NCBI RefSeq assembly: GCF_000003815.2
Contig: NC_049988.1
Location: 23,179,488 to 23,243,487 of the forward strand
DNA: 64,000 bases
Origin: Branchiostoma floridae
Lineage: Eukaryota > Chordata > Leptocardii > Amphioxiformes > Branchiostomatidae
Reading direction: 5' to 3'
The notes under the pieces were generated by a model. It ran no database searches. It was not told where the DNA came from and saw only the letters and a program-made list of their open reading frames with translations. A program made the position numbers and the translations under genes. Shown here piece after piece: positions 7,475-28,350 of this stretch. Each line of letters starts with the position of its first letter. The stretch's first letter is position 1.

Positions 7475-8689
7475 ATGTACGAGCAAGCAGAGCCGGTCCG
7501 GTCCCCTTTCTCTCGCCCTGACAGCGGTCAAACCGACGGGCCGCCGTCCCAACCCCTTGGGCCTCCTGTCCATCAAGGTGGTTCGAATTCCCGCGGGCGT
7601 GTCCGCCATGGCAACGGCCCTTCTGACAAATTGCAAGAAGACAAAGAAGCGTCTTCACACACGTACGAAGAAGCCGAGGTGGTGAAAGGTTACGCAACGT
7701 GCACGTCAGCAGGTAGCCGATGATTTTGTAGCCTGCAATATTAGGTGCAAATTTGCACCATCAAGAAACTACTTTCTGTGCGAGATGATCCATTGATATT
7801 GATGACCTTGAATTTAGATTTTTATCTAAAATTTTCTATCTTGGATATACGTGTAGAGTGATGATTAGATACCGATAACGAGGAAAGAGTAATCACATTG
7901 ATATGCTATCATTCTCTTAGTGATTTGCATGTCTGAATGACATTTACAATATGCAGTCTAAAATACACTGTTCCCGCAATGAAAACCTTAAATCTTGTCA
8001 TTGTCTTATGTTCTTCCTGTGTCATTCCTTTTGTTGATTTTTGCATTGACTTATAGAGTTGATCTTGAGCTCAATATTTTTATTTTCTCGCAGACCGCAC
8101 GTATCCGGGTGGAGCAAGGTGCCGTACTCTCTGTAGCTTCATCCGCTCCCACCGCAGCTGCATCGCAGCCGGCATTGCCGTACTGATCGCTGTTGGACTT
8201 GCCCCTCTGACTTTCATCAATAAAGAGGTAAACACTCTAGTGCAGGTTTTAACACTGTTTGTCTTGTTAATTTACCCGCGAGGCTAACCAAAGAGAACGT
8301 GTCTTTGTGTTCCCACAAGCTATTCTAAGGTTTAGTATTCTGACCTATGTTTTAGGAAATATCACAACTGTCAACAGCCTTGAAGCGCGACCGAGACGAC
8401 ATGCGCCAACTGTCCACCACTGTTGACGCCTTGAAGCGAGACCAAGACGACATGCGCCAACTGTCCGCCACTGTTGACGCTTTAAAGCGCGACCGAGACG
8501 ACATGCGCCAACTGTCCGCCACTGTTGACGCCTTAAAGCGCGACCGAGACGACATGCGCCAACTGTCCACCACCGTTGACGCCTTGAAGCGCGACCAAGA
8601 CGACATGCGCCAACTGTCCTCCACTGTTGACGCCTTGAAGCGAGAGCTAGACGACATGCGCCAACTGTCCACCACTGTTGACGCCTTAA
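7475..8689 (+). pseudogene. C-type lectin gene A, 5' part (tail, membrane anchor, coiled coil), cut by a TTAA insertion
   Basis: Three exons are visible: 7,475-7,712 (start MYEQAEPVRSP; a hydrophilic cytoplasmic tail of about 79 residues), 8,094-8,227 (CSFIRSHRS, then the hydrophobic stretch IAAGIAVLIAVGLAPL, a type II signal-anchor) and 8,356-8,689 (coiled coil). The coil exon has six tandem 51-bp units, each encoding 17 residues of the LKRDxDDMRQLS type. Phases agree at every join. The exon stops at TTAA (8,686-8,689). Its continuation, the same LKRD unit, begins at 27,418-27,421 with the same TTAA, and the two halves joined at one TTAA (334 + 54 nt) give the phase needed by the lectin exon. 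Gene B (31,522-33,442) has the same tail, membrane and coil order with a shorter stalk. Gene A was therefore a type II membrane lectin of about 390 residues and is now interrupted. Confidence 0.85.
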
Positions 8690-8692
8690 GGT
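8381..8692 (+). repeat. Coding minisatellite, six 51-bp units, in the lectin A stalk
   Basis: Six near-identical 51-bp units each encode 17 residues (LKRD-x-DDMRQLS-x-TVDA). The unit length keeps the reading frame, so copy number can change stalk length without a frameshift. Gene B has only one related unit (ISQLTSTVDALEHRL). Confidence 0.9.
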
Positions 8693-8900
8693 GTTCCGGA
8701 GGTATGAATGCGACATATCTGGAAGTAAAATTCAACCAAAAGAAATGGCAGCCATAAACATCTATTTTTAAAATTCAAGACCGTTTTGCCGTCAATGCCA
8801 CCGCCCCAATTCTACGTTTGTAGCAAACTCGACGTTTCTAGCGCATTAAATGGGTGTCGACAGTTTCGGAACAGCCGCACGTGACCCACGCGCCGGGCCC

Positions 8901-9030
8901 TGACCAATGGCAACGAAGGTCCGGTGGCGCCAAAGTTTCCGCGACCCAGCCAATCAGATTGCGCTGCTGAGTGACATCATGCATATATTACTAGGCCGTG
9001 AGGAGCGCGATCATCTTCTGTCATAATTTC
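8901..9030 (+). promoter_or_regulatory. CCAAT/E2F/TATA-type promoter of the 132-codon gene
   Basis: Two CCAAT boxes (GACCAATGG at 8,902 and AGCCAATCAG at 8,949) flank an E2F-like pair (GGCGCCAAA and TTTCCGCG, 8,926-8,943). A TATA-like CATATATTA follows at 8,982-8,990, about 100 bp before the start codon. An E-box-like CACGTG lies just upstream (8,879). This arrangement is typical of S-phase-regulated animal promoters; the regulation itself is inferred. Confidence 0.55.
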
Positions 9031-9091
9031 ATCAACAGCAACAGTTTCGACTTCTCTCACACGCTCTACTCGATTTTTCTTCTCCATCTAG

Positions 9092-10561
9092 ATGCCAAAG
9101 AAGAAAGGTAAGATTTGTTTTTACTTGTCTACATTTCTGAACCGATAATCCGCGACAGTGCCAAAGTTTGAGGTCTGTTTTTAAATTCTTTTTGTGTGTT
9201 TTTCTTCCCTTCCCACATGGTAACAATTTTGATCATATCAATTCGCCACGTTGCGACCAAGAAACTTTTCTGTTTGCCGCGGAGAAAGTTGTATATAATC
9301 GTTGTATATACTGTTTGCAAATAAAAAATTGTTGCAAGAGTACTTCCCGAAATTTTTACCGTGTTTAGTTTCGAACGTTTCGAGGTATAATTTGAATATG
9401 TGCTACAACTATTGATGTCACGTGCTCGACAAAGTTTGTTTCTCGATCTTCATAAATGACGATAATGTTAAAAAAAACTCACCGGTACAAGTTTTCAAAT
9501 AATGATTTTTGATTTTCTTCCCAAAGCCATGCCGGCGCCCGCGTCCAGGACCCCGACTGCACAAGAGACCGCCCTGGAGACGCAGGCGATCCTCCAGCTT
9601 CGCAGTATCGGGAACGGCTTGGGGTACGTTTGCTGTAGTCGTTGACTTTGAAAAAGTTGAATAGAAATGTGGACGATCGGGCTTAAGATTTGTTTTCTCA
9701 ATTTTTCTATGAGTGATATACCTTCAAGTTTAAAACAACAGCATCACAAGCAGTCATGAGGGCTCATTGTGGGAAGATTTGCCGAAAAGATAAGCGGTAC
9801 TCTTCAAAGGGGCCGCTGTTGTTTTATCCCATTCTTATGCATGTCGTAGTGGTGTACAGATCTTGACACGTAAGTTCTAAGTTGTTGGTCTGGAATTTAT
9901 TGTCTTGTTTTTCTCATCACAGCTATCAGCGGCTCAGCGCCAGGGTCGTGACGGCGTTCAGACAATACCGCTACGTAGTCACAAACATGCAGAGGCGCAA
10001 CCGGGTGTACCGTGCCCTCAGTGGCCTCTTGACATACGTAGGTAGATTTCTTCAAAGTTTTCCATGGGAATTACCTATATTTTCCAACAAATTTCTAATC
10101 CCATTATATTCTTGGGGGAATTCTGCTTTATTTACAAAAATAGTCCTTGATTTGTTCTAAGGAAAATATTTGGCATCAATGTCCTGTGATAATTGTAGTT
10201 CAAGCGCGAAGTATGAATTACTTGTCCTTAGAGAAGTCTAATTCATTTTCTTTCATTAGTACACATTTACTTCTAATGTCCATGACTTCATGCTGTATTG
10301 TTGTTCTGTACCAATTATCCATTCAGACAATTATTTTGTATTTTCATTAGAAAAAGATATTCATTGTACACACTTCTATGTCACTTGCAGGGCCTTCGAC
10401 GCGCTCCCCCGGGTACGTACTACTTGTACAGTAGCGAGCTGCTCAACATCGTACGTGATTGCTACCCCTCTGGCGAGGACGTTGCTTGGCTCCTGAACAA
10501 CAGCAACAACCAGCCCACCCTGGACGTCGAGGTGTCCGATCTTTTTGACGACAAGCCCTGA
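9092..10561 (+). CDS. Spliced 132-codon transposon protein, copy 1 (unknown function)
   Basis: Four exons: 9,092-9,107, 9,527-9,623, 9,923-10,037 and 10,391-10,561. All have GT/AG borders and agreeing phases, for 399 nt including the stop. The protein starts MPKKKAMPAPAS (basic, then Ala/Pro-rich). It has a predicted helical, Arg-rich middle (RVVTAFRQYRYVVTNMQRR) and a C-terminal part with TYYLYSSELLNIVRDCYPSG, and ends acidic (SDLFDDKP). I recognise no family. A Lys-rich N-terminus with a basic middle would suit a nuclear or nucleic-acid-associated protein, but that is inference. It lies about 400 bp inside the left end of the TTAA element and converges with the transposase-like gene, so an accessory role in transposition is plausible. 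An AATAAA lies at 10,878. The second copy at 18,934-20,403 is identical where compared. Confidence 0.7.
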
Positions 10562-10877
10562 ACAGCAGGCTCTACCACCAGATGCCCATCGTTCTTGGCC
10601 TCTGTTTGTTTAGAAGTATTAGTTTTTCTTAGGTTTTAGACATGTAGTTTTTTCTTAGGTTTTAGACATGTAGTAAACACTTTCCCTGCTTTTTTCATCA
10701 TTTCATACCCCTGCCTATCCTATCCTACTCCACTTTGTACAGTATTCAGCAGATTATTTTTATAAAGGAGAAGTACAATCTTCAACATAGTATTTTTATA
10801 AAGACAACATATTACATGTATATCCATAATATGTACAGTGTTCTAAACAAGATCATGCTAAATAACAGGAAATGGAA

Positions 10878-10883
10878 AATAAA
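10878..10883 (+). terminator. Candidate polyadenylation signal of the 132-codon gene
   Basis: AATAAA lies about 320 bases after the stop codon in AT-rich sequence. The same signal is present in copy 2 at 20,720. Confidence 0.4.
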
Positions 10884-11818
10884 CATGAGCACCATAGGTA
10901 TTTGTTTGTTGTTTCTTTCTGTATGTATCAAACTAAGGAATGAAAGCTATGAATATTTACAAAGTGCTGGACCAGTTATAAAGCTTGCACAGAGAAATAT
11001 GACATTGACAACACCACACTGGTGTAGCAACTTTTGAAGCAATTTTGGTCAAATGTGTAAACAATACATACTTGCCAAGACATTTTTTCAATGTAAGTCT
11101 TATATGATGAATGTACCAAAACAGATCTATTGTATTCCTTGGCTTCCATCATAATCCTTCACGATAATTTCACAGACTTCTTATGGAGGTAGTGCTGGGA
11201 TGGAAACAAAATAGCAAGTAACTTGTCACTGATATTCTACACATCGAAACAAATACGAGCATGAAAAATATGTACATATCTCTCAGCAAGGAAGCATCGT
11301 GTAAACAATACATACTTGCGAAGACATCTTTTCAATGCTTCCATCAAAATCATACACAGTAATTTCACAAACAGTTCAAATTCCATCAATGCTTACGGAG
11401 GTAGTACTGTCATGAACAACTTGCAAGTAACTTATGTCTGATGTCTGATGTTCTGCACAGATAATACTAACTGTATTAGAAGTGTAGTCCACTAGTACTG
11501 GTAGCGCTACTACTATGTTTTTAACGTCCAAACAATTTTAGAGGAGCTTAGTGCTGAATCAGCATGTATCATTTTTAAAGTCAAAATGATTTGGCTGGAA
11601 TTCAAACCTATGATTTACTGTATGCAAAGCCAGGACTTTACCCACTTAGCAGAGGCAGAATATTCAAATTAAGATGTTGCTATAGTATGGACAAAGGGAA
11701 TGAAATGTTACGATAAAAGTCAAAACTAAACTTAAGTGGCTGAGATGTATTTGTTTCACGATAACCAAGAAAAGTAAAATTCAATGCTGCTTGACTCAAC
11801 AGTTTTGTATTTTTCCAG

Positions 11819-14701
11819 CTCCATCTAAAACTGCCCATGTGATGCACAACACAGAACACCCCCTCACCTGTTTTGCCATCATGGACTCAGGCACATGTCT
11901 AGTAGCAGACAGTAACTTCAACCAGCTCATGACAAAACTCAAGGTAAATCCTACAAAGCTATTTTTCCAGTTTTATTTATGCTTATTCACCATTTTCATC
12001 AAAATATGAATAGAAAGTATATATAAAGTAACACCATGGCAAGTATACAAAAGTAACAGGTTCCACACTGGTGTTCCAGTGCTGAATCAATGGGTCAGGG
12101 CTTTAGCCAGCGTCCGTTTTTCCGTCAATTGACGGAAATTTGCTGCGTGTGACGGAAAAAAATTTCAACCAATCCGTCAACCTTGACGGAAAAAAAATCG
12201 TTGATTGAAGCAAGGAGGCCAAGTTGAAAAGAGGGAAGCTACGGCTTGGGGACGCCCGGACAGCCCATTGTCGGAAAGCCACACACTGTTTGTTTTGCTA
12301 TTGTCATGATTGTTGACGATTGTGTGTCGGCACCCTTTCGCATACGATAATCTCATTAAAAACCCGTTTTTCAAGGTCTCACTCCAAGAACAGTGCATTC
12401 TACGAACTTTGTTTGGAATCTTGACACTCATCAAAACCTAACTTGTACCATAGCGTGCCGGGGCTGGCGGCCGTACAAATTATTTTCGCTCGCCCAGCCG
12501 CGCCGCTTGCGACAACGCAAGGTGCCTGAGTCGCAGCTAAAAGAACCGGCACATCATGCTATCCACAAATAGTTTGATCAACATAATCTTTAGGATCTAA
12601 AATGTTGCACGGTTCTCTTCAGCGGGAATTTTGTTTTTGTTTTGACGAGAAAACGCTAATTTTGCAGCGACACAGATGAGATACCCACGCCACGTTGTTG
12701 TTGGCACACTTCCGGGTTAATTGAACGCCAAAATTCCCCCAAATGCACCATAAATCCGTATATGAATGCATGTTTTCTCAAAAGAGTCTTTGAGTAATTG
12801 TGTTCTTAATTAGAAAATTGTCGTGTAATAGAAAAATATAGCGTTCTCCTGCCTTTACAAATGTAACATTTTCAAACAAATAAAATATTTGAACGCTGGT
12901 GCAGGCGGTGCATCGTGGGTCGGTATCCATAGCTTTACCAATCAGAGCGCGGGATCTGAGGAGACGCCCCTCCAGATGTTACGATCAACCAATCAACAGT
13001 GCGTATTGAGAATATGTAATGTTAGATTTGCATACCCCGCGAGTTGATTTTAGCGCCGTGTTTTTGCGGGGAAAACGCAAAGAAACGATGTTTTACTGTT
13101 CACATTATTACAAAACGTCAGCGTGGTGTCATATTTTCTCCCAATGACAACATTTATATCGGACGAGGTAGACATTTTTGCAGTCAATGACGGAAATTTT
13201 TACGCGATGACGAAAAAAAAAAGATTCTTGACAGGAATTTTCCGTCAATGGGAATTGGCTGACGGAAAAAAATCTCGAGCTGGCTAAAGCCCTGCAATGG
13301 GTCGAATTGGCCTCAGCACTGGTTTTCCAGTGCTGAACGGCCTTGTTCCAGTACAGTGCTGAAGCTGCCTCAGCACTGGAATTCCAGTGCTGACAGAGGA
13401 GACCGTTACTTTTGTATATTTGCAACACCATGCATGTATTTTGTTTTATGTGACAGCCTTTTCCACTATTTTAATATTTCTAAAATTAGCAAGAAGTTGT
13501 GCTATATCAACAACTGTAACATTTCGTTTTCTTACCAATGAACCTACCTTGACACTTCACACGTCTCTTTTTTCCATAACTGCTGTACCACAGAATTTGT
13601 TTCAAACTCAGATTTAAACACTTTTTCCTTCTAACGAAAAATACAACCACTGCAGAATTAAATGAATTTACTGTATTGTGGCCATTTGAGTCTGTGGTGG
13701 GTAAGTTATGCTGAAGAGGGCTGTAGATTTTCCGAGTTTGCACTGCTTGTTTTGGAAGGACTGTTTCCTACATAATCAATGTGGTACAATTCACCAACAA
13801 ATTCCCGAGCTTTGTGGTAATATTCTCTCTCCTGTTTTGTACTCCAAGGGTTTTTACGCACCAAGGAAAGGAGCTAAGATTGAGGTGAAGGGACCAAGAT
13901 ACGAGTATGTAGACTTCATAGTAAAGATTGGAACTGTGACAACTGGACCCACGGCAAGTTCCAGAGGAATTCTAGTAGAGGTATGAATGTTGGTCACATT
14001 CTCTGCAAATTAAGAAAAAATGGAACTAACACATAAAATGTTCTTTCTTTCCTTGTGGGCCCTGCTATTGCACCCTTGCGTAAAAGGCCCTTTACACAAA
14101 CTTCCTCTGGACCAGGGTAGAAATCTAGCTTTGGTCAGGGACATCCTCTAAAATGGGATGTAAAGATGAAGGTCCTGTGTTTGAGATTGAGAACCACACC
14201 TAAAGCAATGAACACACAACACCAAAAATAGTGAGAAAGTGACAGAAGTCGGCTATGCTGGAAAATATCATATACAGCACAGTACATTAGTTATGTTTGA
14301 AGCGGGTCCGTATGGGCGTACTTGGATTTAGATAAGTATTATTGTCGAAAAGACAAATGTGATAACTTTGCAAAAAGTAGAGTGCATTTGTATCCCAAAA
14401 AATCAACTATCAGAACATAACAGTCGCTTTTATAGTGGAATGCATCTTTAAGGTAATTGACAAAAGTGATTTCATACTGGTTTATTCCCCCTTCCCCCAG
14501 GTTGAATACACGTCATGTGTGGTACCAAATGACTGTTGGAATCTCCTAACAGAGTTCATGGGAACGTTCATGGGAGACAACAAGCCAGCTATCCCACAAG
14601 TCCTAGCCAACAAGCAGGATGGGATATACTCCCCAACAGACACCATCCTGCAGTACTTAGAACACTTCAACAACTACAGAAAAAGCACAGGGAACAAGTA
14701 G
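11819..14701 (+). CDS. MED20: Mediator complex subunit 20, 5' exons missing
   Basis: Three exons: 11,819-11,943, 13,849-13,980 and 14,501-14,701. Borders are GT/AG and phases agree, giving about 152 residues. Characteristic stretches are HVMHNTEHPLTCFAIMDSG, LVADSNFNQLMTKLK, RYEYVDFIVKIGTVTTGP and CVVPNDCWNLLTEF, closely matching animal MED20 (human form about 212 residues). MED20 is a head-module subunit of Mediator, the nuclear complex linking transcription factors to RNA polymerase II; the family fold pairs with MED18. The N-terminal 60 or so residues are absent. No exon for them exists between here and the transposon segment ending near 11,444, which points to an assembly break rather than gene loss. 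A hAT-like MITE sits in the first visible intron. UROC1 lies tail to tail downstream. An AATAAA at 15,131 may be the poly(A) signal. Confidence 0.92.
12096..13294. mobile_element. hAT-type non-autonomous element in a MED20 intron
   Basis: The element starts CAGGGCTTTAGCCAGC and ends with its inverse, GCTGGCTAAAGCCCTG. It is flanked by a perfect 8-bp target duplication, CAATGGGT (12,088-12,095 and 13,295-13,302). The CAGGG terminus and 8-bp duplication are hallmarks of hAT elements. TGACGGAAA motifs recur, in both orientations, near both ends. It has no long open frame. Confidence 0.9.
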
Positions 14702-15130
14702 AGACAACTAGCTGACGTGATATTTTATTTTTCTATGTTTCTTAATGCACCTTTTATTATCACTAAGGCCAAGGAGGTTAAAACCTCCTGCTAAGGCAAA
14801 AAGTACTGGCAACAAAAGTACTAGCAAGAACAGTGCTACCTGGATCCACATTCGATATGTCAATCACATATAATGTGAATTTGTAATGTTCAAGTCCACA
14901 ACTGTTACCATAACATGATTTAACTTCCAACTTCATTCTAATAATAATCTTTATTGATTTCTTATCTAATTGCCTAATACATTATTAGCAGCTCTACCAA
15001 CACCAATCTTTTTGAGGCAGCTTAAGCTACTATACTATAGTGTTGTCACTGTTACAAATGACAATAGCTACATGTAGTAATAACATATGCCAAATCCATG
15101 ACACACTCAGTGATTTCATAGAAATAGTTC

Positions 15131-15136
15131 AATAAA
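15131..15136 (+). terminator. Candidate polyadenylation signal of MED20
   Basis: AATAAA about 430 bases after the MED20 stop codon; it is the first plausible signal noticed downstream. Confidence 0.4.
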
Positions 15137-15823
15137 ATTGTCCTACAAAAGTCATATTTTTTGTATGGCTTCTTTTTTTTCAGTCTCTATATTATTTATC
15201 ACAGTTTGTTTATCCTGAGAACAAGGTATTTAAACACAGTGTAATAGTTACTCATCACAAGCAACTAGACATTTGGAAATTTCAAATTGCATGCTTCCAA
15301 ATTCTATCCACCTGGATGTCTAACCTTTGTCAAAATAATGTACTAAACATTTTAGAATCCTAAAAAGACTGCCCAGTGAAGCTTTCAATCTGTCTTTTCT
15401 TTTTAGTACTGACAAACATAATAATACTATGCTGGAAGTTCTGTATCTATCTACATGGACCACCACAACAAAGCTTAGCTTTGGCACCAACCATCTTCTA
15501 AAAATCTCTGCATCTTCTAAAGAAGTAGAGTTCAACCAGAAAGTGGCAATTTTCTTGCAAAAATCTTTGTTCTAATGACAAGATTGCAACTAACAGCAGC
15601 AACAGTTACATAAGAAGCTTTAGGTAGTATCTTAGTATCAATGTACACACTCTCTTACATGTACATACATTTATATACCTATATGTACAAGATTGTACAC
15701 TCTGCTTTGGAACTGTCTGTGGTTCCAACGTACAGTATGAAACATACTATTGGTGACCCTAGCCTCTCTTCTAAGATCAGTTTCACAATTACTCAAGCAA
15801 TGTTTTCCTTATAAAAGGACATG

Positions 15824-18395
15824 TTAGTTGCGGAAAGCCCTCTCCAGCAAAGTCTCGTCCTCCACTGCGTGAGGCATGGTGACCTTCAGCTTGCTGTTCT
15901 GGTCCATGGCGCGGCAGATCGCCTCCTTCGCGTTCTGGTTGCCACACCAGCTCCGCCTGGCAACCTGGGAGCAAAAGAAGGATTGTGAAATGTATAGAGA
16001 CCCTTTTTACAATTGCCTTATTTATACCAACATTTCAGTGACTGTCTGTCACCCTCCTCTGGGCGATTCTGATGGTTTCACATTGCACTGCAGCACTATG
16101 TGTCACTGCTTACAGTTACATATGCAGTCACAACGTAAAGTATTTACTTAGAAGACTGCCTTATGCAAATAAATTCTACTATGCGGTCCCAAAGGTGAAG
16201 GAATGTAATACATTTTACACCAGTCTACTTTTCAATTATTGTGATAGACTAAGAATTTCTGTGGTTATTGAACAGAAAATATGAACTGTTTTCTGTTGTT
16301 CCCTGGTGCAAATACAGACATGTCTTACCCCATTGGATACGTCCCATTGAAGCATCATCTTAGCCCTCTCACCAGCATCCTGTTAGAGTGGGAGGGTGAA
16401 AAAGCTCATTATTTACTACATGTAACTGGAAAATGATTACCTGCAAATAAAAAAATCAGCTACAGCAAGCACCACAATAATGGTAGAAGTGCCGGTGTGA
16501 CAGCGATCTCGCCCCCCCGGGGGCGAAATCACTAGCGATCTCGCCCTCCCCGGCTAGTGATCTCGCCCCCCTACCTCGCCCCCCTTTAGCGATTTCGCCC
16601 CCCCCCCAAAAAAACGGGTTTACATGACATTTTAGAAGTTGATTGGTATAAATCACAAAATGTAGTTTCAGAATGATATAAGTACACGAGTTTGATACAT
16701 AACTCCATTCATAGTATCAATATTAACGTAATTACATGGTAATAAGATAGTTGAACTTGTTTCAGACAAGGAGGGTTTGGTCCCTTGTATTCCCATTATT
16801 GCATATACCTGAGTCTTGACATAAGATGTATTTCATTGTATTCACCTGTCCTCAAGCAACCTATATATCTCCAACATGAAGTCTCTACCATGAAGTGACC
16901 ACAAAAGAACTATGTAATGTCTTTATTAATTATGCAAATATTAGGTATTAATTAGAATAACGCACAATTTGGTATATGCACCTGGCCAAGGGATATCTTC
17001 ACCTCAAACATGACTGTTTTTTCTAGTATTTAGGAACTGATGCATTTACCCGTGTTTCTTAAGACAGGTACTTTACCAGTGTTTGTGTAGCATTTAGCAA
17101 CAGCTATATCAACTTGCGCGTAGATAGTGTTTCTAATGAGAAACTATTATTCACGTACGTGTGTTTTTGTTAGTGCTTTGGAAATGTTTCCAGCTCAAGA
17201 GAGAAAACACTGTGACAAATTGAAAACATATAGCTGACGTATTCCGTACCATAGACGGTGTTGATTTATACGTTCGCAGTAGCACTGTTTTTATGCCACC
17301 TCAGCTGAAAAAATTGTCTTTTTCATTTCAATGTCATGTTTGCACCAAACAATATAGTATCGACTTTCGAGGTATGACATCTTACGGTACGGTAATAAGG
17401 TGCCATATAGGTACCAGGTAACACACCATATACGTTACTCCCCAGGTGCAGTATAGTACCAGGTAGCGCACCTGTAATATGTAGTAACCAGCTGCTCTTG
17501 GGGGGGGGGGGCGAAAACGCTAAAGGGGGGCAAAAATGCTAGTGATCTCGCCCCCCGGGGGGGCGAGATCGCTGTCACACCGGTATATCAACTTCTGCAC
17601 AGCAAACTTGCCCGTACATCTTTAACAAATCCTTAGGGTGGTGCCCATCTCTATATCTGTAGCCCTTAGGCCACACATTTGTGCATGCCACTACAGCTGA
17701 CTTACAATTAAGTCAACATTTATTTCCAAAGAGTTGACTTAGTAAACGTTTCCTTTATATACAATGTAGGATAACAAGGCTTTAGCTAATATTTTGACAA
17801 TGTAAAAAGAGGACAATCCTACCTCTGAACCATCCAGCACAAGACCAAACCCACCATTCATAACTTCACCCCTGTGGAGAGAGCAAAAAAAAAGATGAGA
17901 TTTTATTTTCCAATATACTGTCCAGTGACTGTCAAGTTGCTCCAGCATTTATGTTTGGTTATGAACAGTTCAAATGTGCATGTATAAGAACAACACTGTA
18001 GTACATGTAACACATGCCTTATACCTCCTTTCCACTAGAACGGCGCTCTTGCCGCTCTCTCTCTGCGACGTCAAATTTTACAGATCGCTCATTGAAATGT
18101 ATGGAAAAAAAACAAATGTTTTTACACTTTGTGTGTTTTGTTGTTCTGTCAATCACACTTTTACATTCTGTATGATATACAAAGTAAGAATTCAAAGGTT
18201 ACATATATCTTATTTAGGTCACAGTCAGAGCGCAGCGCGATCGCCGTCTAGTGCAAAGGGAGCCTTATCAATAACAGAAGTTTGAAGACCAGGCAAAAGG
18301 AAGTTCCACCTACCAGCCACACCCCCCACCGTTGTGTAGGGCCACCCATGTGGCACCTCGGAAGGAGTCACCGACAAAGTTCTGTACAGCCATGT
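15824..18395 (-). CDS. UROC1: Urocanate hydratase (urocanase), last four exons only
   Basis: On the minus strand the exons are 18,395-18,314, 17,871-17,823, 16,379-16,329 and 15,964-15,824 (stop at 15,824-15,826), with agreeing phases. Together they read FVGDSFRGATWVALHNGGG, then EVMNGGFGLVLDGSE, DAGERAKMMLQWDVSNG and VARRSWCGNQNAKEAICRA, and end AFRN. These are the C-terminal signatures of urocanase, the cytosolic NAD-dependent enzyme converting urocanate to imidazolonepropionate in histidine breakdown. The HNGGG and GGFGLVLDG segments belong to the conserved C-terminal part of the family. About 107 of roughly 650-700 residues are present. The upstream exons would lie beyond the N gap at 18,582-18,681 but do not continue on its other side, so the gene is truncated by assembly. 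A GC-rich inverted-repeat element occupies one intron. Confidence 0.92.
16492..17583. mobile_element. 1.1 kb inverted-repeat element with GCGATCTCGCCCCC ends, in a UROC1 intron
   Basis: The left end reads CCGGTGTGACAGCGATCTCG followed by a C run. The right end is its inverse, finishing CGAGATCGCTGTCACACCGG. Both ends also carry several shorter units of CTAGTGATCTCGCCCCC in either orientation, giving nested hairpins. The interior is AT-rich and has no open frame of note. AGAAGT and ACTTCT flank the two sides at slightly different distances; no clear target duplication is visible. Confidence 0.8.
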
Positions 18396-18581
18396 CTGAA
18401 ATTGTGGTGATTATCATTTCATCAATCAAATATATAAGGTATCATGAACTTAGATACAGATAAACAGAGATGGTGGATGAGTGGTACATGTAACATGGGC
18501 ATCACCACAATGTTGAAACGACATTTAGGGATTGTTACTTCATGAAATATGACGGTATATGTTTATGAAGGTAAGATATCC

Positions 18582-18681
18582 NNNNNNNNNNNNNNNNNNN
18601 NNNNNNNNNNNNNNNNNNNNNNNNNNNNNNNNNNNNNNNNNNNNNNNNNNNNNNNNNNNNNNNNNNNNNNNNNNNNNNNNN
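18582..18681. other. Assembly gap (100 N)
   Basis: Exactly 100 N, the usual placeholder for a gap of unknown size. It separates the UROC1 fragment from the second copy of the duplicated transposon segment. Confidence 0.99.
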
Positions 18682-18742
18682 TAGCGCATTAATGGGTGTC
18701 GACCGTTTCGGATGAGACGCACGTGACCCACGCGCCGGGCCC

Positions 18743-18872
18743 TGACCAATGGCTACGAAGGTCCGGTGGCGCCAAAGTTTCCGCGACCCAGCCAATCAGA
18801 TTGCGCTGCTGAGTGACATCATGCATATATTACTAGGCCGTGAGGAGCGCGATCATCTTCTGTCATAATTTC
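18743..18872 (+). promoter_or_regulatory. CCAAT/E2F/TATA-type promoter, copy 2
   Basis: Same arrangement as at 8,901-9,030: two CCAAT boxes, GGCGCCAAA and TTTCCGCG, then CATATATTA. Confidence 0.5.
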
Positions 18873-18933
18873 ATCAACAGCAACAGTTTCGACTTCTCTC
18901 ACACGCTCTACTCGATTTTTCTTCTCCATCTAG

Positions 18934-20403
18934 ATGCCAAAGAAGAAAGGTAAGATTTGTTTTTACTTGTCTACATTTCTGAACCGATAATCCGCGACAG
19001 TGCCAAAGTTTGAGGTCTGTTTTTAAATTCTTTTTGTGTGTTTTTCTTCCCTTCCCACATGGTAACAATTTTGATCATATCAATTCGCCACGTTGCGACC
19101 AAGAAACTTTTCTGTTTGCCGCGGAGAAAGTTGTATATAATCGTTGTATATACTGTTTGCAAATAAAAAATTGTTGCAAGAGTACTTCCCGAAATTTTTA
19201 CCGTGTTTAGTTTCGAACGTTTCGAGGTATAATTTGAATATGTGCTACAACTATTGATGTCACGTGCTCGACAAAGTTTGTTTCTCGATCTTCATAAATG
19301 ACGATAATGTTAAAAAAAACTCACCGGTACAAGTTTTCAAATAATGATTTTTGATTTTCTTCCCAAAGCCATGCCGGCGCCCGCGTCCAGGACCCCGACT
19401 GCACAAGAGACCGCCCTGGAGACGCAGGCGATCCTCCAGCTTCGCAGTATCGGGAACGGCTTGGGGTACGTTTGCTGTAGTCGTTGACTTTGAAAAAGTT
19501 GAATAGAAATGTGGACGATCGGGCTTAAGATTTGTTTTCTCAATTTTTCTATGAGTGATATACCTTCAAGTTTAAAACAACAGCATCACAAGCAGTCATG
19601 AGGGCTCATTGTGGGAAGATTTGCCGAAAAGATAAGCGGTACTCTTCAAAGGGGCCGCTGTTGTTTTATCCCATTCTTATGCATGTCGTAGTGGTGTACA
19701 GATCTTGACACGTAAGTTCTAAGTTGTTGGTCTGGAATTTATTGTCTTGTTTTTCTCATCACAGCTATCAGCGGCTCAGCGCCAGGGTCGTGACGGCGTT
19801 CAGACAATACCGCTACGTAGTCACAAACATGCAGAGGCGCAACCGGGTGTACCGTGCCCTCAGTGGCCTCTTGACATACGTAGGTAGATTTCTTCAAAGT
19901 TTTCCATGGGAATTACCTATATTTTCCAACAAATTTCTAATCCCATTATATTCTTGGGGGAATTCTGCTTTATTTACAAAAATAGTCCTTGATTTGTTCT
20001 AAGGAAAATATTTGGCATCAATGTCCTGTGATAATTGTAGTTCAAGCGCGAAGTATGAATTACTTGTCCTTAGAGAAGTCTAATTCATTTTCTTTCATTA
20101 GTACACATTTACTTCTAATGTCCATGACTTCATGCTGTATTGTTGTTCTGTACCAATTATCCATTCAGACAATTATTTTGTATTTTCATTAGAAAAAGAT
20201 ATTCATTGTACACACTTCTATGTCACTTGCAGGGCCTTCGACGCGCTCCCCCGGGTACGTACTACTTGTACAGTAGCGAGCTGCTCAACATCGTACGTGA
20301 TTGCTACCCCTCTGGCGAGGACGTTGCTTGGCTCCTGAACAACAGCAACAACCAGCCCACCCTGGACGTCGAGGTGTCCGATCTTTTTGACGACAAGCCC
20401 TGA
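18934..20403 (+). CDS. Spliced 132-codon transposon protein, copy 2 (unknown function)
   Basis: Exons 18,934-18,949, 19,369-19,465, 19,765-19,879 and 20,233-20,403 encode the same 132 residues as copy 1, with the same MPKKK start and acidic end. This copy is the one physically continuous with the transposase-like gene: the two are convergent, with their stop codons about 1.6 kb apart across a tandem-repeat region. If the duplication is an assembly artefact, only one gene exists. Function unknown; see copy 1 for composition. An AATAAA lies at 20,720. Confidence 0.7.
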
Positions 20404-20897
20404 ACAGCAGGCTCTACCACCAGATGCCCATCGTTCTTGGCCTCTGTTTGTTTAGAAGTATTAGTTTTTCTTAGGTTTTAGACATGTAGTTTTTTCTTAG
20501 GTTTTAGACATGTAGTAAACACTTTCCCTGCTTTTTTCATCATTTCATACCCCTGCCTATCCTATCCTACTCCACTTTGTACAGTATTCAGCAGATTATT
20601 TTTATAAAGGAGAAGTACAATCTTCAACATAGTATTTTTATAAAGACAACATATTACATGTATATCCATAATATGTACAGTGTTCTAAACAAGATCATGC
20701 TAAATAACAGGAAATGGAAAATAAACATGAGCACCATAGGTATTTGTTTGTTGTTTCTTTCTGTATGTATCAAACTAAGGAATGAAAGCTATGAATATTT
20801 ACAAAGTGCTGGACCAGTTATAAAGCTTGCACAGAGAAATATGACATTGACAACACCACACTGGTGTAGCAACTTTTGAAGCAATTTTGGTCAAATG

Positions 20898-21960
20898 TGT
20901 AAACAATACATACTTGCCAAGACATTTTTTCAATGTAAGTCTTATATGATGAATGTACCAAAACAGATCTATTGTATTCCTTGGCTTCCATCATAATCCT
21001 TCACGATAATTTCACAGACTTCTTATGGAGGTAGTGCTGGGATGGAAACAAAATAGCAAGTAACTTGTCACTGATATTCTACACATCGAAACAAATACGA
21101 GCATGAAAAATATGTACATATCTCTCAGCAAGGAAGCATCGTGTAAACAATACATACTTGCGAAGACATCTTTTCAATGCTTCCATCAAAATCATACACA
21201 GTAATTTCACAAACAGTTCAAATTCCATCAATGCTTACGGAGGTAGTACTGTCATGAACAACTTGCAAGTAACTTATGTCTGATGTTCTACACAATTGAG
21301 TGTGCATGAAAATTGCAAGGAAGGAAAATGTGTAAACAATACATACTTGCAAGGACATCTAGTGCTGAGGTAGTGCTGGGATGAAAACAAAATGGCAAGT
21401 AACTTGTCACTGATATTCTACACAGGCACAAGTATGTGCATGCAAAAGTACATCTCTCTCATAAAGGAAGCAACATGAGTAAACAATACATACTTGCAAA
21501 GACATCTTTTCAACACTAACAGGTGAGGCACACTGAAGCCATGATACATCAAAGTAGGGTGAGGGAAGAATGTACCAAAACAGATGTTATATTATATTAT
21601 GTTATATTATATATTTCATTGGCTTCAATCATAATCATACACATTGACTTTACACAAATTCCATCAATGCTTAGTGCTGTGATGAAGCAACTTACAAGTA
21701 ACTTCTTTCTGAAATTCTACATGTAGGCACAAGTATTGTATCTCTCTCAGCAAGAAGGCAAAAATGTGCGAACTATACATACTTGCCAAGACATACTTTC
21801 AATGCAAAACTGACAGGGTGAATGTAACAAAACAGATCTATTGTTTTTCTTGGCTTCCATCATAATCCTACACGATAATTTCACAAAAAAAAGGTCAAAT
21901 CCCATCAATGCTTATGGAGGTAGTGCTGGAAGGAAACAGAGCATTACTCCTTTGCTTTAC
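20898..21960. repeat. Central tandem repeat between the two convergent transposon genes
   Basis: At least five imperfect units start with (G)TAAACAATACATACTTGC at about 20,900, 21,144, 21,333, 21,482 and 21,772. They also share TGGCTTCCATCATAATCC and GGAGGTAGTGCTGG blocks. Unit length varies from about 150 to 290 bp. Copy 1 (11,055-11,440) keeps fewer than two units before diverging. Confidence 0.75.
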
Positions 21961-21971
21961 AGCTTCCTTTT

Positions 21972-24900
21972 TCAGTTGCGTTGCTTTGTGGGTTCCTTGT
22001 AGAGGGGACATTTTTTACTGGAGCGTCTCATGTGGTCATCCCCTCCACAAACACACTTCTTTCTGGACACAGCGTCCTGGTTCCTCCTCTTCTTCGCAGG
22101 GGGTGTTCTCGGGAGGTCCTCTTCTTCCGACTCCTCTTCACTGGTGACATGATCACTGTCGTCACTGACATCGTCTTCTTCACTGTCATCTCTAGCCTCC
22201 ATCTGTTTTGGTGGTTCCTGATATAGGGGACACTTCTTATTTGAACGTCTCATATGGTCGTCCCCACCGCAGACGCACTTCTTTCGGGACACAGAGACAA
22301 CAGTTAACCTCTTCTTCTCTTGGGAAGGCATGGCTGTTGTACCTAAAATGTTCGTTGCCTCATTGTCCTCATCTGCACTGCTGTCGCCGCTATCGCAGTC
22401 TTCTACACCTCCCTCTTCTTCTCCATAGGAGTGACGAATGGGCCTCCTCTTGTTCCATCTTTTCCTTTCTTCTTGGTCCTGAGCTCTGGCCACCTGTGAA
22501 ATGGAAATGATGGTTCCATCAAAATCCAGATTGACAACATACATCTTGTGTCACCAGTTGCAGCTACATATTTATTATAGCTACATGACTATACAAACAA
22601 ACATATATAGAGAGATAAAGATATATATAGAGATATATATAGATATACATACACATATATGAGAGTTATACGAGCAAGAGAAAGCGGGCAAAAGAGGGAG
22701 AGAGGGCAAGGAGGGAGATACATATGGTGGCTATTGTCTTTAGCACTTTAGAGATCAGTGAAATTGACTACCTTCAAAGCTATTCTTCTGTCCTTTGCTT
22801 CCTCTGTTTTTATAGCTGCCAGGCGCTTCATGCGCTCCTCGTTCCTCTTTCGGGCCCTTTCAAGAACACCCTATGGTACAGAAAAAGGTAGGGATTAATG
22901 TATCCAGTGACAAAACAATAGAAGCACATAAGCAAACAGATTATTTATGTGGGTTTATGCGATCAATCATTACAGATATCCAGTAACAACAGAGGTCCCA
23001 CACAGGACAGCCACATTCATGCAAACGGCAAAAGTACAAAAGCATTATTCCTTACAATATGTTCAGTTATTCTGTGCCAATGAAATCTTGATTTACATCT
23101 CATTTCCTCACAGATAGTGTTAGTGTGTGTGTGTGTGTGTGGATAATGTTTGTGGCAAAACAAACAAAAATATACCTCTGGTACAGGGAGCCCCAAGTCT
23201 TGGTAGACTTCTCTAATCCAGTGGTAGTCTGGACCATACTTGTTGAAGCACCACGTCATGTTGCCCTGCAGCAGCCCGATGTCCGTCCATGTGCAATATC
23301 CTAATCTGTTCAGCGATATGCTTTTGGACCTGTACCTAAGGTTGAAAAACAGAGGAATTTCAGGACAAATTATATTTCTATCTACTATGATACCTGTATG
23401 GTAGAACAAAGGTCTACTAGTGATAATTGATTTGCTTCTTTATGCAACCTCATTTTGGATTGGCACATGTAAAGCAATTCAACAAGAAAAGACATGTTAT
23501 TTACTTATTAGCACTATAATAGCAGACAAAAACATGGAAGCATTCTGACCTTATGAGAACATTGTTGCGAGCCTCAGGATAATTTGAGTGCCCCCTGCCC
23601 ATCTCCGGGTGGATTACATCCTTACTTCTCGATGCCCTTTCTTCGCACTCGATCCGGTAAGCCATAGTGTGCATAGGACATGTTAGCGGATGCCGTACTG
23701 CATATGGTTCTCCCTCACATGTCACGTTCGGCTGATTGCAGTGTCCACATGTGCACCTTTTGTCTCCATGAAAGTCACATCTTCCCTCTTTCCAGGTGTG
23801 GACATCCCGTGCGTGGTAGTTACCCAGGGCTGTCATCCTTCTGGCGTACACTTCTGGATCCGCCCCGCTCTGGACAAGTGATGCAAAATGGTTTATCCTC
23901 ATCTGCTTTATACACTTGGGTGTCAGGCAGCCACAGGTGGGGGAATGTTTTTTGCAATGGCATTTCAGCCCATCCAGTTTATACTTGGAATGTTTGCTCT
24001 GGAAGCCAGCAGAGAAGATCTTCATAGCAGCAAGCTTTTCCAACTGCTTGCCGTGGGCTCGCCCGACATGCCCACCACAGTACATGAGCTTTGACCCATC
24101 AGCCTCAGGGTAGTACATACGAAAAGACCGTGCGCTGGTGCTGTCCGCATCCTGCCAGTGGACTTCGACCTTGAGGCCTTCATTGCTCAACTCCTCCCAA
24201 ATCAGTTCGAAGCCATACCCCTCTGCTGATTTTGCTGTCCCTTTATAAAGTTCAATGTGAGATGTGGTCTCATCCTCTCCACGCATGCAGAGATGGACAG
24301 CAGAGATGAGCGAGTTCTTTTGATAGTTCACAAGCAAAACAGTCATGTTTTTGCTGTGGTGTCCCCGAGTGTGGTAAACACCATCCCCTGACGTCACAGC
24401 TCGGCTCCAACTTCCAATCTCTGACTGGTCCATCTCCTTCATTTCCTCTCTTGCATCCGTCATCTGCTTGTCCAGAATTGCATGGATCTTTGGGTATGCA
24501 TCCTTCAAGATTTGATAGTATGTTTTGTCACAAAACACAGGGATGCCCAGACCCAGACCAAGGACCTGTGAGTATTTCTCATATGTGTGTCCATTCAGAA
24601 TAAAGGACAGGGCAACAACACGGCCAAGGACATTTTTGCGCTGTAGCTGTGTGAAAGGAGAGGCGTCAAAGGCAACTGCAGCATTTCGACAGATGCCAGT
24701 GCATCGGAACTCAGCACGCATAAGGCCACCACGCCCGGCTCTGTCTACATCACAGGGCATAAGGACTCCGGTACATCCTTCAGTTTGGCACCTTCTCTGG
24801 TCATTCACCTGTATGCAAGGAAAACTAAGTTAGCTCCATAATGTGCCGTTATGCACCGAGGGACAAAATTGATAGTGAAAAAATGGATACAATCAATTTG

Positions 24901-26640
24901 GGTACTGAAATCAGTTCACACATTCATCCATTCCTGAGAGATAAATTACTATCTTAGAGAGAACTTACTATGCTTCATTGCAAATGGATGCTGAGAAAGC
25001 AAGTAACAACAGTGTGTAGAAAACTGTATGTCCAGTATGCTACAACAGCAGAACAGATGAACTAAAAGTAGTACAACATTTTTAGTTTTGTTATGAAATA
25101 TAAAAAAGGAAAGGGTATAGCCTAACAATGACAGTCAATGCTACTACATTTGTGTCTACATACATCAAATTTGGAGATTACAACCTCAGAAATTACTTTC
25201 AGGAATTGTACAGAAAAATTATGTACTATTGTTTGCTCCCCTAGTTTCTTTAGTTTGTGTGGTTTATGTGATTCAACAAGCCTTGCTGCAATATTACCCA
25301 CCTGATCGATCAAGTATCCAAGTGATTCACCATACGCGATGAAGACAGATGGTGCCATGGTCTTCCACGTGTCACTTGATGTTCCAGTCAGACTGTTCAT
25401 CTTTGCTGGTTGGCTTGGACTGCTAGTTGTGGGCCCACTAGGAGTCCACTCCACATCTTCTGATGAGGAGATGTCATCATTCTCAGAGCAAGAGCTCTCC
25501 AGAACAAGGCTCTTGTTGAAACCCCTAGACAGATTTGAGTCACAGTAAATATACAATACAACTTCTGTGCAATCTCTGAAAGGTTTCTCAACATTATGAA
25601 TGCATATTCGGTTATTCATTCAAGGTCTGGATTTATATGCTGGGATAGTCTGGTAAGTACCAGTCATTCTCAAAATAAGTTATGAAGTAAGGTCTGCTAA
25701 CAACTCAAAATGTTATTTGCAAGTATTACATTACTCTTCAAGCAGAGGTTGGCCATGAGACAACAAGAAGAATTATAGAAAGCCCGATAAAAACGCCACA
25801 AAAAAAAAGTAAAAAAAACGGAGCCTTACATCTGCTTGGAGAGTAAAATTACACCAGATTAGCAGATTACCCTTTTACGGTACATAAGTTTTGTCCTAAC
25901 ATGAAACATTGGAACAAAATCATTATAAATTCTGTTTTTCTACGGTAATGTTAGCGATTTGGACGGGGAAACTATCCTTACCTCAAATCATTCCTCTTTC
26001 GCCCCTCCCCCCTCTCGTGCTTACGCCATACTCAAATATTTAGAATCAACACCTCCTCATAATATACAGCAAACACGACTCATCACACAAATCCTCCTCT
26101 ATACCACTGGAAATAGATTATCTCATTTATTTATCTTAAACTTGCGTTGTCAATTTCAGCAGTATCTTCATCTTGGTGTACTGTTAGGACACGCATCTGT
26201 TCACATACTAGTATACGAACGTGACGACCAACACAAGAAAGTCCCCAGTATTAAACATGGTCGTATGCGTTCAACTGATATTGTGACCAAGGTCATGATA
26301 GCTACAAGAGCTTTGTAGATGGAAATTTGGTGATTTAATGATGTGTAGAGTACACAAAATAACGATATCAAGCAGGTAGAAATGTGCCTAACCTGTCCTC
26401 CAAAACGTCCACCGAGGCTGCCGCACTCCGAACCCGTGTCTTCCCAGGGGTTTTCATCACCTGACTTTTCTCGTAGTTTCTGACCTCATACCCTACTGGT
26501 GGCTCATAACTGGTACTTCTCGACCCTTTACCCAGCCCTTGGGCTTCGTTCGAGCGTCTAGCAAGGTTAGCATAACGCTTGGAAGGTAGTTTCTTTTTCT
26601 TTTTCCCGCCACCCGAAGTCGTCGGCTGCTCGTCCGCCAT
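21972..26640 (-). CDS. RNase H-fold transposase-like protein with zinc clusters (836 codons, six exons)
   Basis: Minus-strand exons 26,640-26,393, 25,524-25,302, 24,808-23,550, 23,335-23,176, 22,870-22,772 and 22,493-21,972 sum to 2,511 nt in frame. The start ATG lies in AAAATGGCGG. Order of parts: Lys-rich N-terminus (1-80); Ser/acidic linker (85-130); a Cys cluster (C164, C169, C176, C193, C197); a catalytic-type core with GDGVYHTRGHHS (D299), WQDADS (D377, D379) and CGGHVGRAHG (401-410); a Cys/His-rich module (about 440-536); HPEMGRGHSNYPEA (557-570); basic helices; and two C-x-C-x4-H-x7-C knuckles (736-751 and 810-825). The DG-RGH, DADS and CGGH spacing resembles the Mutator-like transposase domain family of animals. 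It would act in the nucleus on the element's ends. The frame is intact. Domestication as a host gene cannot be excluded, but the flanking TTAA duplication argues for a transposon gene. Confidence 0.82.
22612..22660. repeat. TA/GA-rich simple repeat in a transposase intron
   Basis: Alternating TATATAGAGATA units between exons 5 and 6 of the transposase-like gene; a simple low-complexity tract. Confidence 0.6.
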
Positions 26641-27417
26641 TTTGATTTTCAGAGCAGGGAGGTTGGCGGGGATGACGTCACGAGGCTCACGTGACTCCGT
26701 GCGGGGCAGGGCTTGTTTTGGCTGTTACTTACGCCCTCTGGAAAGATGGAAATTCGTGTTCTGGCTTCCAAATAGGGAAATAACGCTTGTTGAGAGGTCA
26801 ATGACCGCGATTCAACCCGGAAGTAACCGGGCCATTAGAACGCGGCACAGAAATCTGCGATTTTGGCCCTTTTTCGACATCAGAATGGTGAAATTACCAC
26901 CCCTATACTACGTACTTAATTTTTAGGGCGTCTCGCCCCAAAAACTACTCATCAAAAATGGGTAAAAAGGGTCTTATTTTGAAGTTTACCCCGTAAGGTA
27001 CAACTTCCCGCGTAGCCGCCTCAAGGGGACGCTATTTTGCGCTCCTGACTGCCGGTAGCGTAAGGGGTAATTTAAAATCGAGGAAAAATATTCACAAAAA
27101 ATCTGAATTGCAAAATATCATCAAAAACGCGCGCAGATCGGTTTGTATCACTATTATCTACATTTCTGCAAAGTATCGATGATGATAATTGAACTACAAG
27201 CGGGGCGCTACACCTTTTTACCATTTTTTCCTAAAAATGGGCGTGGCCTTATAGCTCTTGATGACGTCATCATGACGTCATACCAATTTGCATAAATTAT
27301 CTTAAGACAATAAGGTACTACCTGAAAAAAAATCAAGGTCCATGCATTATTTTAAATGGTATTTTCAGAACACCAAAAACACCCCAAAAAAGGGCTCAGG
27401 CACCATTCCTGAGTACC
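26641..27417 (-). promoter_or_regulatory. Transposase 5' flank and right end of the TTAA element
   Basis: No exon is seen here. Next to the start codon the sequence is CG-rich with CACGTGAC (26,689-26,696). The YY1-like AAAATGGCGG overlaps the ATG. Towards the end lie short palindromes (ATGACGTCATCATGACGTCAT around 27,260-27,282) and a GGGCTCAGG-caccatt-CCTGAG hairpin (27,392-27,414) close to the terminal TTAA. These are candidate transposase-binding and promoter elements (inference). Confidence 0.4.
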
Positions 27418-27421
27418 TTAA

Positions 27422-28350
27422 AGCGCGACCTGGACAGCGAGCGCAGCCGAGTCACCGCCTTGGAGCAGCGTCTTTGTAAGATGCCAGTTTATTTGTTTAA
27501 TTTGTTGTGTGTACTATTTGAGAGGATGAAATTTAAAATATCATTGGTATAAAAACAGGAACTTTTGTGATATGACTAGTATGAAACAAATAATGTGTGG
27601 CATTAATCATCACATGAGATTAAATATCTTGTTAATGATTTTAATACTCTTTGCTGTCTTTATTTACTCGTTATGCAGGTACTCTATGGAAGCATATCTA
27701 TGAATGTTTAGATTTGTATTGCTGCGTTTTCAATATCACCCATGTCTATACGTTAGTCCGATGTTAATAGAAAACTTGTTTTCCAGCATCTTGTCCTACA
27801 GGTTACACAGAGTTCCGTGGAATCTGCTACAAGGCCTTTGACACAGACAAGACCTTCGGCGATGCGGCCGCGGCCTGTGGTGAAGACGGCGGCACCCTCG
27901 CCATGCCCCGAGACGCTGAGACCAACGCCTTCCTGATATCCCTGCACAACTCCGTGAGCGACAAGGTGGGATTCTGGTTCGGCCTGCACTATCAGCGCGA
28001 AGAGAGAAGCTTTGAGTGGGTGGATGGTTCTGCACTTGGGACGTACAACTCCGGGGCAACCGAACAGCTATCATGGCAACGCGGATTGCGTTATTCACTC
28101 CGCACTCCCAACCCGGAAGGACAAGTGGGCCGACGTCTCATGCGACTTGCACTTTCGCTACATATGCCAGGCTGTCCCAGGTATTTCTTATAACCGTATC
28201 ATTTCCTGAAACCTTTCTGTCTAGTAAACATGGTACAGCTCAAGTGTCCATCAGACCAAGCACGTTAGACCATTGATTATTATAAACCATTTCACAACGC
28301 ATCATTACTCTATATCTCATGTCTCCTGTTTGTTTTCAGGTCGTCCCTAG
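27422..28350 (+). pseudogene. C-type lectin gene A, 3' part (stalk end and lectin domain), frameshifted
   Basis: Exon pieces: 27,422-27,475 (rest of the coiled-coil exon, KRDLDSERSRVTALEQRL), 27,787-28,180 (lectin domain) and 28,340-28,350 (last codons and stop). The domain opens SCPTGYTEFRGICYKAF and contains GGTLAMPRDAETNAFLISLH and FEWVDGSALG, all closely matching gene B. After TYNS (28,052) gene A has 4 bases where gene B has 12, which shifts the frame. The rest of the domain (GQPN, then DCVIHS, KWAD, FRYICQAVPG) is readable only in the next frame. The total joined length is 1,165 nt, one more than a multiple of 3, and the 8-base loss accounts for it exactly. The sugar-site motifs are QPN and WAD instead of QPD and WND. 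With the TTAA insertion upstream, the gene is very probably non-functional. Confidence 0.85.

Follow-up and report, generated by a model that had tools for sequence, protein, structure and literature searches.

A Kolobok-like transposon very probably splits a C-type lectin exon of Branchiostoma floridae at a duplicated TTAA

Introduction

What separated the two parts of a C-type lectin coiled-coil exon in the lancelet Branchiostoma floridae, and does everything that now lies between them belong to a single mobile element? The question is raised by a 64,000-nt stretch of DNA, here called the window (NC_049988.1:23179488-23243487; contig C10 in this analysis of a genome of 513,431,437 bases in 431 contigs). 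An earlier note, made from the sequence alone, had described an exon that stops at one TTAA and continues from another, and had read the intervening DNA as a transposon with both ends defined to the base. We consider it very likely, with a probability of roughly 0.93, that this exon was hit at a TTAA by a DNA transposon of the Kolobok superfamily, with duplication of the TTAA. Paralogous empty sites and copies that share its ends support both the insertion and the reality of the two outer ends; a single continuous element from 8,690 to 27,417 is not supported.

Results

The split exon and its empty sites

TTAA stands at both edges of the break (8686-8689 and 27418-27421), as had been claimed. 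Joined at one TTAA, 8356-8689 and 27422-27475 give an open exon of 388 nt (EISQLSTALKRDRDD...DALKRDLDSERSRVTALEQRL) that ends in phase 1 before the GT donor at 27476 and whose frame is continued by the exon starting at 27787, which bears out the in-frame join. The uninterrupted sequence that the earlier note had pointed to within an internal repeat unit is also present: CGCCTTAAAGCGCG stands at 8529, its one occurrence in the assembled window, within one of the internal 51-bp repeat units, and CGCCTTAA is found at the left breakpoint as well (8682).

A search with the lectin repeat returned 298 matches, from which five paralogous loci (L004-L008) were taken for comparison with 64 nt to the left and 54 nt to the right of the joint, ungapped. 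The exon was uninterrupted at the joint in four of the five, with 112 of 118 positions matching in each of L004 and L005 and 102 of 118 in each of L006 and L008. L007 was the exception: its best match reached 89 of 118, with 30 of 54 on the right side, and its right part lay at another position (43/54), where the left side matched poorly (33/64). The bases at the site are TTAA in L006 and TTGA in L004, L005 and L008. These empty sites are paralogous, not allelic, and L004 and L005, being alike over the compared stretch, are perhaps not independent of one another.

The downstream exon of the split gene matched Lectin_C (Pfam PF00059, 1.5e-10, window 27783-28049), compared with 4.9e-18 for L004 and 4.5e-21 for the window gene at 33009. 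Relative to three paralogous copies (these two and L005) it carries an 8-nt frameshifting deletion. Since the insertion splits the gene and its lectin domain exon is frameshifted, the gene, with these two lesions, is probably a pseudogene.

Outer ends and related copies

The element starts with GG (8690-8691) and finishes with CC (27416-27417), that is, with 5'-RR and YY-3' termini. Its left end occurs again at C4:31581220, starting from the same TTAA, where the 60-nt left flank is just 23% identical to the lectin; over 1,345 bp this copy and the window are separated by 4 substitutions and two gaps of one base, and C4 has an insertion of 243 bp. The copy (C4:31581220-31582813) halts within exon 3 of a small gene of the left arm, gene X, and then gives way to other DNA. 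No right end for it was detected in the next 28 kb, which hold three N gaps, and it may be a one-ended copy or an assembly effect.

The right end was searched with 26700-27421, the best 40 of 140 candidates being scored. Copies with ends elsewhere, which the earlier note had named as evidence to the contrary, were sought; the C4 copy proved to lie at the same TTAA, and of the 39 non-self right-end matches listed 21 ran exactly through the TTAA at 27421 and 18 stopped short of it. Related to this end is a family of miniature inverted-repeat transposable elements (MITEs), 79% identical to it over 463 columns. In five of the six loci compared, a unit of 1.2 kb is bordered by TTAA at each end, with flanks that differ; the left ends of the MITE, GGTAGCCAGGAGGTATG, and of the window element, GGTGTTCCGGAGGTATG, are similar. 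When the 538 TTAA sites of the window (both strands) were ranked against the 21-mer of the MITE left end, 8686(+) and 27418(-) came out on top with 15/21 and 14/21, the third scoring 12; against the MITE right end, 27418(-) was first of 536 sites with a score of 46.5, followed by 21.0. With these copies the claim of ends defined to the base stands.

The transposase and the assignment to Kolobok

The sole Pfam family matching the minus-strand core open reading frame (ORF) at E<=1 was PF20700, "Mutator-like transposase". In a relative on contig C1 (30526849-30530825) three transposase regions follow one another as in the window, the core being 62% identical, and the right end reads, by eye, CCTACC and then TTAA. 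Window and C1 share the motifs SGDG, QDAD (D, D), CGGH and a cysteine-rich zinc finger, all assigned by eye. The ORF at 21975..22550 is perhaps the C-terminal part of the transposase; its zf-CCHC_6 match lay below the Pfam cut-off (E 0.013), and it had no match in the C1 relative. The transposase had a single match in a search of solved structures, at E 0.52, which we regard as chance.

We assign the element to Kolobok because a minus-strand PF20700 transposase is combined with TTAA duplication and GG...CC ends. MuDR/Mutator, which gives PF20700 its name, has a target duplication of ~9 bp and was rejected, the duplication here being the 4-bp TTAA.

Several observations weigh against our reading. 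The position of the last catalytic E (SNYPEAR) was judged by eye, and the alignment with C1 ends short of it. The terminal inverted repeat, also compared by eye, is brief and agrees at 8 of the first 11 bases, one of the six MITE-like loci (L016) is without the TTAAGG left end, and we found no further near-identical copy with both ends, C4 providing a left end only and C1 a right end only. Pfam detected no THAP domain in the five minus-strand ORFs scanned, the gene being partly spliced; this domain is usual in Kolobok, Xenopus Kolobok included (PMC6004289).

The assembled interior

That the 18.7 kb between the ends form one element is unproven: they include a 100-N gap, a 2,521-base repeat and a truncated MED20 segment, and here the earlier note's single element from end to end gave way. 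The earlier note mentions neither this gap nor the 8-nt deletion in the lectin domain exon. The identical repeat flanks the gap (8913-11433 = 18755-21275). Over the wider span, 8839-11444 against 18682-21286, there are seven differences. Six fall within 73 bases of the gap on its right side, as a contig end of poor quality would lead one to expect; the seventh consists of 7 bases that the first copy has and the second lacks, immediately ahead of the point where the copies part. Partial repeats of the left-arm end (84-94%) were also seen, 11051-11409 and 21317-21928, on the second contig just past the parting point. The simplest minimal element measures ~8.9 kb, made up of 8,690-8,838 (149) and 18,682-27,417 (8,736). 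The extra 9.8 kb, a left arm and then the MED20 segment, was either carried along by the element or misjoined at the gap.

Pfam Med20 matched two window ORFs. A MED20 bait matched C5 over residues 6-51 and onward, and the window over 60-202 only, not 6-59. Between window and C5 these exons show little difference, with a nonsynonymous divergence (dN) of 0-0.03 and a synonymous divergence (dS) of 0.05-0.18. In a genome search with the MED20 part, C5 (79-85%) was the only other match among the best 40 of 2,196 candidates, and a closer copy may be missed. Since the segment is 15-23% diverged from C5 and the left arm differs from C4 by only the few substitutions given above, older host-like DNA adjoins a young left arm. 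Nested in the segment at 12096-13294 is a 1.2-kb MITE whose ends, CAGGGCTTTAGCCAGC, are inverted and which has, as read by eye, the 8-bp repeat CAATGGGT on its flanks; 24 near-full-length copies of it (95-99%) are among the 49 non-self rows listed. Another insertion, 16492-17583, has inverted-repeat ends (95.7% over 46 columns) and sits between blocks matching C5 MED20.

We favour an assembly artefact as the more probable account of the interior. The left arm would have been assembled twice, and the first contig would switch inside the repeat to another locus or haplotype in which MED20-like DNA adjoins a fragment of the left arm. The exact identity over 2,521 bp points this way, as does the second contig, which opens immediately past the gap at a point 149 bp in from the left end of the element and into whose first 73 bases six of the seven differences are crowded. 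So does the C4 copy, likewise a left end that runs into other DNA. According to PMC7269912, the lancelet assembly was made with ARACHNE from ~tenfold Sanger data, two highly divergent haplotypes being assembled apart and merged, which makes such joins plausible; that this is the assembly of the window is, however, our inference. Also against an artefact, no third locus with left arm and MED20 was seen among the same 40 best candidates.

Distinctly less probable, in our judgement, is a real, composite interior in which a left-end fragment and host MED20 DNA adjoin a complete element, the outermost left end and the right end having carried the whole block to the lectin exon. From lectin sequence over the left end to the MED20 segment the first contig has no Ns, the 7-bp extra stretch at the junction could be a repair scar, and the isolation of the C5 match fits as well. 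However, a perfect 2.5-kb repeat that meets a gap is a common assembly fault, and the divergence of the MED20 segment, set against the near-identical C4 left arm, implies different histories. Nor was Med20-segment DNA detected beside the C4 or C6 left-arm relatives in the stretches examined.

The 2.6-kb direct repeat was also considered as the long terminal repeats of a retrotransposon and rejected: the second copy comes directly after the N gap and the DNA between matches host MED20, the ORFs having been partly scanned. An Rfam scan of 8600-27500 gave 0 matches at gathering scores, and a structured RNA in the left arm was rejected.

Gene X in the left arm

Gene X, on the plus strand and convergent with the minus-strand transposase gene, has an open coding sequence of 399 nt with GT and AG at each intron, its exon limits being set by hand. 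No Pfam family passed the cut-off (best PMAIP1, E 0.12). Among solved structures searched by sequence, the best match, to a viral fusion glycoprotein (E 0.0033, 59 residues), contained no stretch passing alone and was taken as chance. In a comparison of exons 2-4, each in part, with C6:27878346-27876176, dN was 0.02-0.12 and dS 0.54-1.4; given this low dN and high dS, the protein is or was under selection.

Against C6:27878346-27876744, the introns were 91-93% identical and exons 2-4 78-87%, with mostly synonymous changes, the exons diverging faster than the introns while the protein is kept; in this comparison exon 3 was overextended by 4 bases. Introns more alike than exons could reflect a mosaic history or constrained introns. 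By eye, the C6 copy has a shifted splice donor. A decayed transposase piece of 78 aa lies ~17 kb away from it, in the orientation of gene X itself rather than converging with it. As a candidate general Kolobok gene, gene X was not found in the C1 stretch examined, ~25 kb beyond the C1 transposase core; it may be part of the transposon or a host pick-up.

About 7 kb from the C1 Kolobok relative we observed an open frame of 1,414 aa (L042:1759-6000, minus strand; C1 ~30537758-30541999). Its first 315 residues match Helicase_C, RQC and a RecQ zinc-binding domain, with no other Pfam match at E<=0.01, and it is perhaps a helicase-bearing transposon.

Table 1. Positions in the window of the split lectin exon, the element and its assembled interior.
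Feature	Position	Strand	Remarks
Left part of split lectin coiled-coil exon	8356..8689	+	51-bp repeats; final bases are the left TTAA
Left TTAA target copy	8686..8689	unstranded	
Left terminus of transposon	8690..8838	+	GGTGTTCCGGAGGTATG...; second copy on C4
Left arm, first copy	8839..11444	+	8913-11433 identical to 18755-21275
Gene X, four exons, 132 aa	9092..10561	+	exons 9092-9107, 9527-9623, 9923-10037, 10391-10561
MED20-like host segment	11485..18567	+	collinear in blocks with C5:16849861-16854192, 77-85%
Nested MITE in MED20 segment	12096..13294	unstranded	hAT-like, by eye
100-N assembly gap	18582..18681	unstranded	
Left arm, second copy	18682..21286	+	directly after gap; without terminal 149 bp
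ORF with two CxCGxxxHxRxSxxCPLY zinc-knuckle-like motifs (by eye)	21975..22550	-	
Transposase core ORF	23504..24829	-	Pfam PF20700 7.8e-12
Upstream transposase exon region	25125..25619	-	matched in part, 48%, in C1 relative
First transposase exon region (MADEQ...)	26371..26640	-	63% identical in C1 relative
Right terminus of transposon	26928..27417	-	inward GGTACTCAGGAATGGTGCC...; ~75-79% to MITE family
Right TTAA target copy	27418..27421	unstranded	
Right part of split lectin exon	27422..27475	+	GT donor at 27476
C-type lectin domain exon, same gene	27787..28180	+	after AG; right limit approximate

Discussion

By analogy with the superfamily, the transposase gene, on the minus strand with its start near the right end, would encode a DDE enzyme that excised the element elsewhere and joined it to the TTAA. 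A second small gene starts near the left end on the plus strand and converges with it. The closeness of the C4 copy (4 substitutions in 1,345 bp) suggests that the family moved recently. The insertion splits a lectin gene whose lectin domain exon is also frameshifted.

Two other explanations of the break fare far worse. A piggyBac-superfamily insertion, very improbable in our estimate, would share the TTAA duplication only. The ends here are GG...CC, and 5'-RR sets Kolobok apart from piggyBac (PMC9587614); nor was a piggyBac-type transposase seen, PF20700 being the only match of the core ORF at E<=1. The weakest reading, that two unrelated lectin fragments end at TTAA by chance without any insertion, can appeal to the commonness of TTAA (538 sites scored on both strands) and is refuted by paralogs that are gap-free through the joint and by other copies with the same ends.

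Kolobok elements show TTAA duplication, 5'-RR / YY-3' ends, a C/DxxH motif and a zinc finger before the last E (PMC9587614). The window element resembles the superfamily in its TTAA duplication, its RR...YY ends and a DDE-type transposase with C/DxxH followed by a zinc finger (PMC9587614, PMC6004289), and its companion TTAA MITEs recall T2-MITE in Xenopus. It differs in the absence of THAP from the scanned ORFs, in the unrelated convergent small gene of the left arm and in the host gene segment of the assembled interior.

With KolobokP, reported from three Branchiostoma species (PMC9587614), the element has in common a Kolobok transposase and the presence of direct repeats. The same source gives KolobokP long terminal direct repeats, whereas the window ends are not direct repeats of each other: at E<=1e-5 a self-comparison of 8601-27500 listed none that the left and right ends have in common, and the window repeat is internal (left arm twice) and meets the assembly gap. 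KolobokP is also described there with a His-Me finger nuclease (PMC9587614), for which a non-exhaustive scan of eleven ORFs or spliced models inside the element gave no Pfam match.

A more novel reading, which we think unlikely, is a composite Kolobok whose two left arms enclose 7 kb or more of host DNA with a truncated MED20 in it, the outer ends having moved the whole block into the lectin exon; the conserved 132-aa protein would be the product of a new Kolobok accessory gene. Were the interior real, it would resemble Pack-TYPE elements in having host coding DNA inside transposon ends (PMC8903248). Those elements are described as non-autonomous and from plants, whereas the present element includes a transposase gene and its capture of host DNA is putative. 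In the literature, covered mostly through titles and abstracts and hence a weak negative, we found no description of the lectin insertion or of a Kolobok element that contains DNA from a host gene.

Should the MED20 cargo prove genuine, it would be a case of a TTAA transposon transporting kilobases of a host gene in an animal. Otherwise the locus serves as a warning about transposon anatomy read across gaps in merged-haplotype assemblies. For the lancelet Kolobok family, ends known to the base, empty sites in paralogs and a sister copy of recent date make excision and insertion directly testable.

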